A stretch of 64,000 nucleotides of DNA from Calothrix anomala FACHB-343 (GTDB taxonomy: Bacteria; Cyanobacteriota; Cyanobacteriia; Cyanobacteriales; Nostocaceae). This document shows positions 20,867 through 39,535 of this stretch, piece by piece (the stretch's first letter is position 1; every line of letters starts with the position of its first letter). Position numbers and translations under genes: made by a program. Location: contig NZ_JACJQG010000027.1 in assembly GCF_014696435.1 (NCBI RefSeq), forward strand, positions 1-64,000, written 5' to 3'. The notes under the pieces were generated by a model that saw nothing but the letters and a program-made list of their open reading frames with translations, made no database searches and had not been told where the DNA came from.

Positions 20867-21541
20867 ATGCTTAGAGAGTACTCACCCCCGCTTCAAAGTG
20901 GCGATCGCTTAACTCGTCCAGAATTTGAACGACGTTATGCGGCTGCACCCCACATCAAGAAAGCTGAATTAATTGAAGGAATCGTTTACGTGGCATCTCC
21001 ATTAAGACATGAACAACATGGCAAACCCCACAGCAGAATCATGACTTGGTTAGGAATCTACCAAGCAATGACTCCTGGTGTTGACTTGAGTGATGCACCC
21101 ACGGTACGCCTGGATTTAGATAACGAACCCCAACCCGATGCAGTATTGTTTCTTGAATCTGCGGTAGGTGGGCAAACACGTGTGAGTAGTGATGATTATA
21201 TCGAAGGCGCGCCTGAGTTAATTGTGGAAATTGCCGCCAGTAGCGCCGCAATTGATAGGGGTAGCAAAAAGCAGGTTTATCGCCGTAACGGGGTATTAGA
21301 GTATGTAATCTGGCAAACCTATGACAATCAAATTGAATGGTTTTACCTCACCGATGGCGACTATCAATTGCTATCACCTGGCGCAGATGGGATTATTCGC
21401 TCTCAGGTATTTCCGGGTTTGTGGTTAGCGGTAGAAGCGCTGTTAAATAATCAAATGGCACAGGTGTTGGAGGTAGTGCAAGCGGGGTTGAATTCAGCCG
21501 AACATACAACGTTTGTACAACGGTTGAGTCAAAGAACGTGA
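20867..21541 (+). CDS. Uma2-family endonuclease-like protein (DUF820)
   Basis: The 224-residue protein is a second Uma2/DUF820 member: FERRYAAAPHIKKAELIEGI near residue 25, the Asp in EPQPDAVLFLE near 90, and APELIVEIAASS near 116 with VYRRNGVLEYVIW after it. These match the PD-(D/E)XK core. It is only distantly similar to the divergent neighbour at 19998-20561, so a recent local duplication is unlikely. The ATG at 20867 is preceded by TTTGAGGATGAAAAA, giving a usable GAGG ribosome binding site. Confidence 0.88.
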   Translation: MLREYSPPLQSGDRLTRPEFERRYAAAPHIKKAELIEGIVYVASPLRHEQHGKPHSRIMTWLGIYQAMTPGVDLSDAPTVRLDLDNEPQPDAVLFLESAVGGQTRVSSDDYIEGAPELIVEIAASSAAIDRGSKKQVYRRNGVLEYVIWQTYDNQIEWFYLTDGDYQLLSPGADGIIRSQVFPGLWLAVEALLNNQMAQVLEVVQAGLNSAEHTTFVQRLSQRT

Positions 21542-28209: not shown

Positions 28210-30000
28210 TCACCGCAGCGAAGAAAGGCGATCGCTAATATCTGCTAAACTTCCCCTAACAGTCACAGTATGAGGATGATTTACACCCCATACTTGCTGA
28301 CAAATATCTAAAGCTTGCTGATAAAGTGGCTGTGCTTCACTATAACGCCCCGTTAATCGATAAATTTCGGCTAAATTATTGAGACTTTCAGCAACATAAG
28401 GATGATTATCTCCTAAAAGTTGCTTATCTAGTTCCAACGCCTTTACACACAAAGGTTCTGCTTCTGGAAAACGCCCTTGTTCTCGATACATATAACCTAA
28501 AGCATAAATTGTATCTGCTAACAGAGGATGCGCCTTTTGCAGTAAACGCTGCTTAATTTCCAAAGATTGCAAAAACAAACTCTCCGCTTCTTGATAACGT
28601 CCTTGAGCGCGATATATTAATGCTAAATTGTGTAAATCTGTTGCGACTTCAGAATTCTCATCTCCTAAAAATCGCTTATCTAATTCTATAGCTTGCAGCG
28701 ATAATGGCTCCGCTTCTCCATAGCGTTTTTGATGATAATAAAGTAATGCTAAATTATTGAGAATAATGGCGATAGAAGGATGATTTTCACCAAGCAGATG
28801 CTTTCTAATTTCTAATGACTGTAGATAAAGCGGTTCAGCTTCGTGATAACGTTCTTGTTGATCGTATAGTAGCGCCAAATTATTGAGACTAGCAGCAACA
28901 TCAGGGTGATGATCTCCTAGCAGGCGTTTTCGCAATTCCAAAGCTTGTTGATATAAAAGTTCTGCTTTACTATATTGTCCCGTAGATTTATAAAGACCGG
29001 CAAGATTATTCAGACTAGTAGCAAAAGATGGATGATTATCGCCTAAAAGATTTTGAGTCAATTCCAAAGCTTGTTGATATAAAGGTTCTGCTTCCTGATA
29101 ACGTCCAATTGCGCGGTAAAATCCTGCTAAATTATTCAGATTAGCAGCTAAATCCATCTGCAAATCTAATTCCCTATTCAAATCTATCGCCTGACGCCAA
29201 TACTTAATTGCTAATTCCTGTTCTTTTTGATAATTCTGAGATTCACCCCGATCTAACCGACTACGGTAAATATCACCCAACCTAGAATATAAAGTAGCCA
29301 AGCTGGGATCTTTGCTTCCTTTTTGCTGTTCAACTTTCTCGATTAACCTTTGTAAATCTTGGATAGGTAAACAAAAAGAGTAATTTTCATTAGTATCAAT
29401 GCTAGCTAACTCCGTATCTCGAAAAACAAAGCGGATTGGCTCTAATTCCTTACCTGCGATCGCATTCGTTTTTTTAGACACAAATCGGAATACACCATTG
29501 CGCCAACTCCAAAAATCAGGGGCTTTTTTAATTAAATTAAATAAGATTTGATTCGTTACCCAAAGTACAATTGCAAAAGGAAATTCCCGCAATCCTTCCC
29601 TAGTCCATTGTAAATAACCAAAAAACTTTTCTTGCTCTGATTGCTCATCACCCAATTTGAGAAAATAAAGTTGTTCAGCACCCATCATCGTTATGACTGC
29701 TGGATTTCTTTGACGTAGATATTCTTCTTGTTGAACTAATTGATTGAGAGCAGATTTTAAACTCGGTTCCTGTCGTGCTAATATCACCCGATATGGACGA
29801 AAATTTGGTTGTAGTTCTGCTTCATATTTATCAATAATATCATCACGAAAACTTGCATCATCACATACAGCAATTAGCAAATTTAATCCTTGCTTTTCCG
29901 ATTCTATAGAAACAATCAAATCATCATAAGCATCTTGATTTTCTTGCTCATCATCTAACTCTCCATCATCGCTAAATCCTTCATTCAACATGGATAACAC
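28210..30000 (-). CDS. TPR protein with degenerate NTPase-like N-terminus, partner of the upstream ATPase
   Basis: The 596-residue protein has an acidic start, then about 170 residues laid out like a P-loop NTPase but lacking Walker A: a hydrophobic strand LNLLIAVCDD near residue 37, PAVITMMGAEQLYFLKL near 100 in the Walker B position, and REFPFAIVLWVT near 138. From about 230 there are seven 42-residue kinesin-light-chain TPRs (NNLAGLY..TGQYSKAELLY). The end, GVNHPHTVTVRGSLADISDR, mirrors that of the STAND protein at 1185 (GVNHPNTVTVHQNLADLRDR). Its start overlaps the end of the ATPase gene by 20 bp, so the two are translationally coupled and probably form one complex. I infer a split STAND-like switch. 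Confidence 0.82.
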   Translation of the reverse strand: MLSMLNEGFSDDGELDDEQENQDAYDDLIVSIESEKQGLNLLIAVCDDASFRDDIIDKYEAELQPNFRPYRVILARQEPSLKSALNQLVQQEEYLRQRNPAVITMMGAEQLYFLKLGDEQSEQEKFFGYLQWTREGLREFPFAIVLWVTNQILFNLIKKAPDFWSWRNGVFRFVSKKTNAIAGKELEPIRFVFRDTELASIDTNENYSFCLPIQDLQRLIEKVEQQKGSKDPSLATLYSRLGDIYRSRLDRGESQNYQKEQELAIKYWRQAIDLNRELDLQMDLAANLNNLAGFYRAIGRYQEAEPLYQQALELTQNLLGDNHPSFATSLNNLAGLYKSTGQYSKAELLYQQALELRKRLLGDHHPDVAASLNNLALLYDQQERYHEAEPLYLQSLEIRKHLLGENHPSIAIILNNLALLYYHQKRYGEAEPLSLQAIELDKRFLGDENSEVATDLHNLALIYRAQGRYQEAESLFLQSLEIKQRLLQKAHPLLADTIYALGYMYREQGRFPEAEPLCVKALELDKQLLGDNHPYVAESLNNLAEIYRLTGRYSEAQPLYQQALDICQQVWGVNHPHTVTVRGSLADISDRLSSLR

Positions 30001-31273
30001 CTTTATTCTTCAAACTTTCTATCAGGATTGGATGCACATCATACCAAGTTTCATCAGTGCGATATTCCAAAACATATAACCCATGTAGTAAATCTAAAAA
30101 TTCCGGTTGTTTGGGGTCATTAGGTATAAATTGTTTATATACGTTTTGGAGAATGTCTATGTCAATTCTTCCTAGACGTATAGAAAAATCATTCCGAATT
30201 TTATTAATAGCTTGAAATAAAATATTATCGTCAATTATAATAGATTCTGCTGAATTTCTCCGAATTAAACGCAAACAAATGCGACAGCATTCTTTTGCAA
30301 TACGGATTAATTCTCGTAATACTCCACCACTGTAAATCACAATTTTTTCAGCAGTTTGTTCGGCTATTAATTCACTAGCAATCCGCTTCTGTAAAACCTC
30401 ACCGAGAATCTTAATTGTCTCAGGACGAGGTTGAGCATGAGGGAGACGATTTTTACCCTTCTCGAAGATTTTTAAAACAGGCATGACTACAATCTGGTCA
30501 TTAGTTTCTGTAGTCAGAATCGTGCTAATAAATGTTTCCCTTAATACAGCAATAGGGATAGTATAAATTATGCGGAAATTCGGCTGACAAAGAGCTTTGA
30601 TATTATCTTTATAAATTTCATTAACTCTGCCTAAATCGAGTTTATCTAAATCATCAATAATCACTAAAACATCTTGTTTGGTCGCAGTTTGAATCAGCGC
30701 AGCAATTTCGTTAATTCTCGCCACTAAATCTGATATTTTTCTTTCAAATTCTTGTTTAATTTCATCTCTTACCGCGGCATCAGCTTTTAATTTAGAACTA
30801 ATCAGCTTGAGTAAATCAAAACCAATTTCGGCTTCCGCTTTCAAATTTAATTCTTCAGTGCGAGTGCGGGTAGCAAACCATTGATAAAGAGCCTCTTTAG
30901 TCGATTGGGGAATTTCCACCTGACGCGCTTCCGCTTCCGACATTAAATTAACTGCGATCGCAAACAGGATATTAATATGATTAACGGCTGACATTTCAAT
31001 TTTGTCAGCAATAGAGAACAAGACTACAAAATACTTATTTTGAATTTGTCTGCTAAACTCAGCTAACAAAGTTGACTTACCACATCCGCGATGTCCCGTA
31101 AAGATAATTTTACTATCACCATTGGGACTATCTTCAACCAATTGGTTTAGATCTGCAATCAAATCATCACCATATTCTACTCGAAACTTTTCCATTTCAT
31201 TCTTTTCCATCAATGGAAATAGTTCGAGATTGCTATATGCTTCCTGAAACAATTCTAATAATTCTTTAGACAT
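29981..31273 (-). CDS. STAND/AAA-type P-loop ATPase
   Basis: The 430-residue protein is a P-loop NTPase with Walker A GHRGCGKS at residues 60-67, Walker B VLVIIDDLDKLD near 205, a sensor-like strand RIIYTIPIAV near 230 and a winged-helix-like segment (YSGGVLRELIRIAKECCRI near 315). A charged coiled-coil (about 125-195) interrupts the ATPase core. It lacks a visible effector domain and lacks a repeat sensor, both of which STAND proteins usually carry; the TPR array is in the next gene, which overlaps by 20 bp. The closest described relatives I can name are KAP/NACHT-like ATPases; substrate and trigger are unknown. Confidence 0.85.
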   Translation of the reverse strand: MSKELLELFQEAYSNLELFPLMEKNEMEKFRVEYGDDLIADLNQLVEDSPNGDSKIIFTGHRGCGKSTLLAEFSRQIQNKYFVVLFSIADKIEMSAVNHINILFAIAVNLMSEAEARQVEIPQSTKEALYQWFATRTRTEELNLKAEAEIGFDLLKLISSKLKADAAVRDEIKQEFERKISDLVARINEIAALIQTATKQDVLVIIDDLDKLDLGRVNEIYKDNIKALCQPNFRIIYTIPIAVLRETFISTILTTETNDQIVVMPVLKIFEKGKNRLPHAQPRPETIKILGEVLQKRIASELIAEQTAEKIVIYSGGVLRELIRIAKECCRICLRLIRRNSAESIIIDDNILFQAINKIRNDFSIRLGRIDIDILQNVYKQFIPNDPKQPEFLDLLHGLYVLEYRTDETWYDVHPILIESLKNKGVIHVE

Positions 31274-31449: not shown

Positions 31450-31585
31450 CAATACAGTTCACTTAGCGCTAAAAACCTTAACCTATGTAGGTTGGGTTGA
31501 GGAACGAAACCCAACATTTCCAGGGTTTTGTTGGGTTTACACACGGTAAGCCCAACCTACAATTATCCTTAAGTGAACCGTATTG
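31450..31585. mobile_element. 136-bp MITE, family D
   Basis: The ends are CAATACAGTTCACTTA and the reverse complement of the right end CAATACGGTTCACTTA. A perfect 10-bp direct repeat GATTAGGAAT flanks it (31440-31449 and 31586-31595). The interior is a palindromic GTAGGTTGGGTTGAGGAACG/AAGCCCAACCTAC repeat that also occurs at 32189-32263. The rest of 31274-31833 is AT-rich and shows no gene. Confidence 0.95.
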
Positions 31586-32089: not shown

Positions 32090-32188
32090 TTGAGAATTTC
32101 CTCATAAATGTTACTTTTCTGAGGAGAGGCGATCGCGAAGAAATACAAAACTTTCACTAACAGTGGCGCTGAAATGTTGCATTAGGTG

Positions 32189-32263
32189 TAGGTTGGGTTT
32201 CGTTCCTCAACCCAACGCCAGATAAATGTTGGGTTTCGCAAAGCCTCAACCCAACCTACAATT
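32189..32263. repeat. Dispersed palindromic repeat GTAGGTTGGGTT
   Basis: TGTAGGTTGGGTTTCGTTCC and CTCAACCCAACCTACAA form a long imperfect palindrome, sharing its arms with the interior of the element at 31450-31585. No target duplication was found. Confidence 0.85.
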
Positions 32264-39331: not shown

Positions 39332-39535
39332 ATGGCACAAAGGACAAGGTTGGGAGATATACTGAGACCCCTAAACTCTGAGTATGGTAAAGTTGCTCCT
39401 GGTTGGGGAACTACACCAGTAATGGCTGTTTTTATGCTATTATTTTTCGTTTTCTTGCTGATTATTCTCCAAGTCTATAACAAGACCATCCTCATTCAGG
39501 ATGTATTGGTTGATTGGCGCAGTCTAGGCCGTTAA
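39332..39535 (+). CDS. psbH: Photosystem II subunit PsbH
   Basis: The 67-residue protein has a soluble N-terminus ([20 protein letters not shown]), one thylakoid membrane helix (about 28-50, [19 protein letters not shown]) and the conserved end [16 protein letters not shown]. PsbH is a small intrinsic subunit near CP47 that stabilises the quinone site. A clear rho-independent terminator follows at 39577. Confidence 0.98.

Follow-up and report, generated by a model that had tools for sequence, protein, structure and literature searches.

A putative two-protein AAA+ switch encoded by an overlapping gene pair of Calothrix anomala and its relatives

Two overlapping genes lie on the minus strand of the 64,000-nt stretch of the Calothrix anomala FACHB-343 genome analysed here (positions 1 to 64,000 of contig NZ_JACJQG010000027.1, hereafter the window): an open reading frame (ORF) running from 31273 to 29981 encodes an AAA+ ATPase, and another running from 30000 to 28210 encodes its partner, in which an N-terminal domain (hereafter the N-domain) precedes an array of tetratricopeptide repeats (TPRs) (Table 1). 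Most likely, the two products form a hetero-oligomeric switch, in which the sensor would sit on a dead AAA+ domain; in most of the sampled lineages, this domain also has, at the position of the arginine finger, a basic residue that is missing from the ATPase. An earlier note on this DNA had described a P-loop ATPase (GHRGCGKS, VLVIIDDLD) followed by a protein with seven kinesin-light-chain-type TPRs; both motifs are present, the ORFs lie where it had placed them, and Pfam recovers the repeats as seven TPR_10 stretches. The 20-bp overlap that it gave holds for the GTG start at 30000, and becomes 11 bp with the preferred ATG at 29991, which is the most frequent overlap among relatives (13 of 86 distinct gaps), followed by -4 bp (12 of 86); altogether, the two genes overlap in 46 of the 86 distinct gaps, and are separated by 0–50 bp in another 20. 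Upstream of the ATPase gene, short inverted-repeat elements (gtaggttggg...cccaacctac) can be read at about 31487–31560 and 32188–32260, and look like small mobile repeats.

The ATPase is matched above the Pfam cut-offs by AAA_16 (37.6 against a cut-off of 32.6), AAA_22 and, with a lower score, KAP_NTPase (PF07693, 26.4 bits against a cut-off of 20). KAP NTPases have membrane segments inserted in their P-loop domain; the insert found here is helical and charged, as read from the sequence and the model. Motifs and predicted fold together indicate an AAA+ core with Walker A and Walker B and an ORC/STAND-like fold (origin recognition complex; signal transduction ATPases with numerous domains), and no repeat family was matched in the 430-residue chain, the TPRs sitting in the partner. 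Conservation was followed in 90 pairs, retained when an ATPase ORF of 380–520 residues had a partner at E<1e-3; three pairs were fetched twice, leaving 87 distinct ones. Besides the Walker residues, R297 is invariant (90 of 90 aligned ATPases), and SGGxxR occupies the position where a sensor-2 or GxP motif is expected (hhGRExE and GxP being motifs of such proteins).

The partner is less easily classified. Its first 201 residues gave no Pfam match above cut-off, the N-domain of the window gave none at E<=0.1, and no convincing sequence relative of the partner N-terminus was found in the PDB (best E 0.3). The motif GxxxxGK[ST], present in every paired ATPase, is absent from the N-domains of all 90 pairs (87 distinct). 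AlphaFold2 models the N-domain as a five-stranded alpha/beta core (10-residue means of the predicted local distance difference test, pLDDT, of 68–97 over residues 11–170), followed by a low-confidence linker and then the TPRs, with no C-terminal helical bundle. When this model was compared with solved structures by VIA-align, which compares only chains that Foldseek ranks, 50 of the 50 matches listed were AAA+ by title. The N-domain is thus predicted to be an AAA+ fold lacking the ATP-binding loop. The earlier note had proposed a degenerate NTPase domain at this place, and would have abandoned it for an unrelated fold; the missing Walker A and the predicted structure agree with it, and sequence profiles do not (see below).

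Table 1. Features of the gene pair in the window, with their positions
Feature	Positions	Strand	Remarks
ATPase gene, 430 aa	29981..31273	-	ORC/TnsC/STAND-type AAA+ ATPase; C-terminal part a winged helix by model reading
Walker A GHRGCGKS, residues 60-67	31073..31096	-	K66 in 90/90 aligned ATPases
Walker B VIIDDLDK, residues 204-211	30641..30664	-	D207 in 90/90
T255, helix end before beta5, at the arginine-finger position	30509..30511	-	not basic here
SGGVLR, residues 315-320, sensor-2-like motif	30314..30331	-	R320 in 88/90
AAAGG within the ATPase gene, possibly the ribosome-binding site for the partner	30000..30004	-	8 nt upstream of the ATG at 29991
Partner gene	28210..29991	-	593 aa from the preferred ATG; 596 aa from the GTG
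AAA+-like pseudo-NTPase domain of the partner (predicted), residues 9-170 from the ATG	29482..29967	-	no Walker A; AlphaFold2 fold
R131 of the partner	29599..29601	-	arginine in 39/39 rows of alignment A2 and in 85/87 distinct pairs (one H, one gap)
R164 of the partner, first beta5 residue in the model	29500..29502	-	predicted; candidate arginine finger in trans
Kinesin-light-chain-type TPR array, seven 42-residue repeats (putative sensor)	28237..29148	-	limits approximate

The partner gene usually follows the ATPase gene. The ATPase (P0002) is matched in 48 of the 59 genomes of the relatives set, including its own genome, which holds seven copies. A first N-domain model, built from 13 TPR-type partner N-domains, placed the partner directly downstream at 41 of 44 ATPase loci. 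All 14 ortholog loci have it there, and the majority of them had supplied rows to the model; of the 30 paralog loci, from which no rows had been taken, 27 have it. The exceptions are one diverged partner, which a later, broader model finds (L065), and two fusions (L083, L085). Among GTDB loci, the partner lies downstream in 43 of 50 (45 of 54 ORF pieces), the seven misses being at or near contig ends (L134, L151, L165), among broken or unrecognised genes (L157, L160, L167), or in Aminicenantes (L168), where a similar-looking downstream TPR gene gave no score with the N-domain model. Outside cyanobacteria, a second model, with rows from the own genome and same-order relatives only, recovered the partner beside 12 of 16 ATPase ORFs, and beside a 13th when its locus was read differently, in Chloroflexota, one Aminicenantes metagenome-assembled genome (MAG) and two archaeal genomes of one phylum; L164, L166 and the gene shared by L168 and L190 are counted in both sets. 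Over 107 loci and 1551 ORFs, the partner follows 97 of 112 ATPase ORFs, never occurs on the opposite strand within 1.5 kb, and is upstream only once, as a neighbour in a tandem array. Without the four ATPase genes fetched twice, it directly follows 94 of 108 distinct ATPase ORFs, so that the pairing is not due to chance; the conserved neighbourhood and fixed gene order on which the earlier note had staked its proposal are therefore borne out. At one Aminicenantes locus (L191, 7611-9143, minus strand), an MBL-fold protein stands at the partner position downstream of a broken ATPase, and was rejected as a partner, its N-terminus giving no N-domain score.

In 20 genomes, counted without ATPase fragments and N-domain matches weaker than about 1e-9, 78 of 82 near-full-length ATPases are paired, which is not an independent test because many model rows come from those genomes; one of the four unpaired ATPases is the fusion of genome G003. 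At E<=1e-20, the ATPase profile gives matches in at least 67 of the 292 own-phylum genomes (all 67 of 3.8 Mb or more), in at least 6 of the 151 from the phylum to which the Ardenticatena genome belongs, and in at least 2 of the 23 from the archaeal phylum, the starting genome being included in each case. The Aminicenantes MAG (G061) alone gives thirteen matches, some of them broken pieces. As archaea and further groups of bacteria also have the pair, a two-part molecular switch of ancient origin is its probable identity.

ATPase and partner have also diverged together. The distance matrices of the ATPases and of the partner domains are strongly correlated over the 87 distinct pairs (r 0.946; 0 of 5000 permutations as high), among which L164 and L192 (Ardenticatena) are near-identical and hence not independent. 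The correlation persists within single genomes: r is 0.92 for the seven own-genome pairs (reached in 3 of 5000 permutations) and 0.97 for six Aminicenantes pairs (21 of 5000). Species descent alone does not account for this, and the pairs therefore seem to have been kept together through duplication. In the ATPase tree, the window gene falls in a cyanobacterial TPR-type clade (100/100) that spans many families; the tree contains several long deep branches, whose order is uncertain.

What varies among relatives is the C-terminal end of the partner, ATPase and N-domain being the constant parts. TPR-ended partners occur in the window, archaea, Chloroflexota and Aminicenantes; other ends consist of nSTAND1-WD40, NACHT-TPR, Roc-COR (Aminicenantes) or, in Chloroflexota, NACHT-TPR-cNMP-binding (cyclic nucleotide monophosphate) with a guanylate cyclase match below the Pfam cut-off (L164 9296-12838 and L194 6642-10622, E 8.9e-4 and 2.5e-4). 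These last ends are a possible built-in signal output, which qualifies the earlier statement that no effector domain is visible: it holds at the window, and not for those relatives whose partners are fused to Roc-COR, or to cNMP-binding and possibly cyclase domains. At one locus (L084, 3223-11023, plus strand), two tandem ATPases, the first of them fused behind another STAND-like module and TPRs, lie beside one partner with two tandem N-domains. Two further ATPase relatives, on separate branches of the tree, belong to loci of published MoxR-centred ternary types: in L085, the ATPase relative is in the gene that follows EAD8-iSTAND, MoxR and vWA genes, and in L116 (4126-9299, plus strand; plasmid p057_J of Nostoc sp. 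C057), VMAP and MoxR genes are followed by a protein ending in the ATPase, an apparent recruitment into a ternary conflict system. Pfam gave no vWA match in that protein, and the claim for L116 is therefore limited to its place beside MoxR and VMAP genes. Natural fusions of ATPase and N-domain were sought in long frames of five genomes (G003, G008, G010, G019, G133), and none joins both: a stop codon splits the frame of G008, other parts are fused in G003 and G019, another STAND-like module is joined in G010, and the frame upstream of the ATPase in G133 reads as an unlikely protein. A CHAT-like reading of the C-terminal half of the G003 fusion was dropped, no such Pfam match being found.

The arginine finger of AAA+ proteins lies just before beta5. 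Of the 87 distinct pairs, 59 have a basic residue at this position in the partner alone, and 21 have one in the ATPase alone (the WD40-type clade); exactly one of partner position 164 and ATPase position 255 is thus basic in 80 pairs, and both in none, the remaining seven comprising one truncated pair and four with a lysine one residue on. The pattern agrees with an arginine that the partner would supply in trans in most of the sampled lineages, and that the ATPase would have retained in the WD40 clade.

How could such a pair work? The first product would be an active ATPase of the ORC/STAND type, and in the second, a pseudo-AAA+ domain would be joined to a TPR sensor. We infer that the pseudo-AAA+ domain docks beside the ATPase and puts R164, the basic residue before beta5, at its ATP site as an arginine finger. 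Clamp loaders and the ORC provide a precedent, as their inactive AAA+ subunits complete the ATP site of a neighbour. A ligand bound to the TPRs would alter the contact between ATPase and partner, the ATPase would then exchange or hydrolyse ATP and assemble, and the signal would be passed on to an effector encoded elsewhere. We hold this split switch, with its arginine in trans and ligand-driven signalling, to be somewhat probable.

Several results weigh against it. Aligned with the ATPase profile by hhalign, the N-domain shows no relation (probability 0.4% and 0.7%), and the claim for its fold therefore comes from AlphaFold2 and VIA-align only; together with the values against iSTAND (0.1-0.2%), this rules out a sequence-level proof that the N-domain is an NTPase. 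Three of the 82 ATPases have no recognisable partner in the stretch fetched, and 39 of 116 N-domain matches in the 20 genomes have no near-full-length ATPase directly upstream, among them a stand-alone form of 166 residues and one second copy of a tandem; some of these orphans may adjoin ATPase fragments dropped from the count. A further orphan is a 736-residue protein with an N-domain and TPR-like repeats (L234 1471-3681, plus strand; G000:C35), and weak matches in frames of 724-771 residues in 15 of the 20 genomes imply that this form may be a common cyanobacterial gene. The arginine pattern comes down to roughly a single change in the tree, that of the WD40-type clade, two other column pairs of 6486 separate the clades equally well because two clades dominate the sample, and the complementarity was spotted before being counted and tested. 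As for the short forms, the stand-alone N-domain protein (L235 3157-3657, minus strand; G000:C67) lacks both ATPase and repeats, and 16 of the 20 genomes have N-domain matches in short open frames of 156-215 residues, some with internal stops.

The genomic setting counts on the same side, as far as a role in biological conflict is concerned. The operon could be a non-defence regulator, acting for example in the stress response or in differentiation, that shares domains with conflict systems by descent only; we regard this as quite possible, if short of probable. The neighbours in the window are mostly housekeeping genes (RibD-like, FemAB-like, DUF4346, histidine kinase, GIY-YIG and mannosidase genes), no MoxR or vWA gene was found among the seven scanned with Pfam, and the defence island for which the earlier note had suggested looking is not evident around this locus. 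In PADLOC, the nearby matches are all to candidate models: PDC-M43B matches the histidine kinase next to the pair (E 2.6e-7), and PDC-S03 a protein about 7 kb away (20867-21541, plus strand; E 9.7e-17). No match was found in phage records or viral contigs. In addition, TPR-type pairs form their own clade across many cyanobacterial families, and occur in archaea and the Aminicenantes MAG as well. Against a purely regulatory role stand the ATPase relatives in the two MoxR-centred ternary loci, the partners bearing NACHT, nSTAND1-WD40 or Roc-COR, and the relatives found on cyanobacterial plasmids (8 records). With a housekeeping setting and candidate-only matches on one side, and links to conflict systems by family and by two ternary loci (L085, L116) on the other, the chances of a conflict or cell-death role for the pair are about even. 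Elsewhere in the window (39373-39433, minus strand), Rfam matches the Plastid-psbN 5'UTR RNA (54.8 bits, cut-off 50).

Alternatively, the ATPase could be a homo-oligomer with an arginine finger of its own, the partner docking only as an adaptor that brings cargo or a signal, with an AAA+ fold that is a relic serving as a binding surface and no part of the active site. The WD40-type clade, in which the ATPase and not the partner is basic at the finger position, would suit this, as would the invariant R297 of the ATPase. However, the reverse distribution prevails in the 59 pairs whose ATPase lacks the finger residue, and both the pairing and the correlated divergence extend to lineages with the basic residue in the partner, which makes this alternative rather unlikely.

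That the pair is simply a member of a published active/inactive STAND pair, nSTAND2 or iSTAND, is very unlikely: the principle is the same as that described for nSTAND2 (a two-gene operon, one eroded NTPase, variable fusions and a predicted hetero-multimer; PMC8195603), yet PF20702 does not match the window ATPase (E<=0.1) and has no match in its own genome, which holds seven such ATPases, PF19995 is not among the 24 Pfam families matched by any of 39 N-domain members, and the N-domain shows no similarity to a profile of 24 iSTAND domains.

The kinship in principle is nevertheless instructive. In nSTAND2, as portrayed by Kaur et al. (2021; section 15 of PMC8195603), active and inactive STAND modules are encoded in a two-gene operon, proposed to yield a hetero-multimer, and the eroded protein is fused to variable domains, most often GT4 or HEPN. 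In the present pair, too, motifs and predicted folds point to one gene for an active NTPase and one for an eroded NTPase; its partner domain differs in having no Pfam family, and neither GT4 nor HEPN is among the matches listed for 20 partner proteins (a small sample). The iSTAND domain, proposed as a sensor module in MoxR-vWA ternary systems and in BREX BrxB/BrxF (PMC7159879, PMC12839542), is described as having a compact core of the AAA+ type, in which the Walker motifs are eroded; the BREX version is said to lack a C-terminal helical bundle. The modelled N-domain shares the AAA+-like core, the eroded Walker A and the missing bundle; in contrast to iSTAND, its companion is a dedicated active ATPase instead of MoxR/vWA or PglZ, and sensor repeats are fused directly to the pseudo-AAA+ domain. 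STAND proteins of the NLR, CED-4 or Avs type carry NTPase and sensor in one chain, whereas here they are on two proteins, joined through the pseudo-AAA+ domain. Unlike the ORC and clamp loaders, the pair gives no indication of a role in DNA replication, and its subunit interface is putative. No description of the pair was found in the literature searched, including the available parts of PMC8195603, PMC7159879, PMC12839542, PMC10907252 and PMC13092281; the 2004 STAND survey, whose Npun2340/2341 family could overlap with the ATPase, was outside this scope. The earlier suggestion of an undescribed system thus goes too far as to kind, the active/inactive operon having been proposed before, although the Pfam nSTAND2 model does not match this ATPase.

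Taken more broadly, and only tentatively, the pair may represent a cross-domain class of two-subunit AAA+ switches, in which a pseudo-AAA+ 'plug' would give the arginine finger in trans and mount exchangeable sensors or outputs (TPR, NACHT-TPR, nSTAND1-WD40, NACHT-TPR-cNMP-binding with a possible cyclase, Roc-COR), the finger having moved to the ATPase in the WD40 lineage. If the split switch is real, sensing and ATP switching can be assigned to separate proteins that a dead AAA+ domain brings together again, and one type of ATPase serves many sensor and output modules. The loci of the family are numerous, a single genome often having several paralogs, and the need for the inactive partner and the arginine swap are directly testable. 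Such a switch would further point to a role for a domain that lacks a Pfam family, and for large cyanobacterial WD40, TPR and NACHT proteins.

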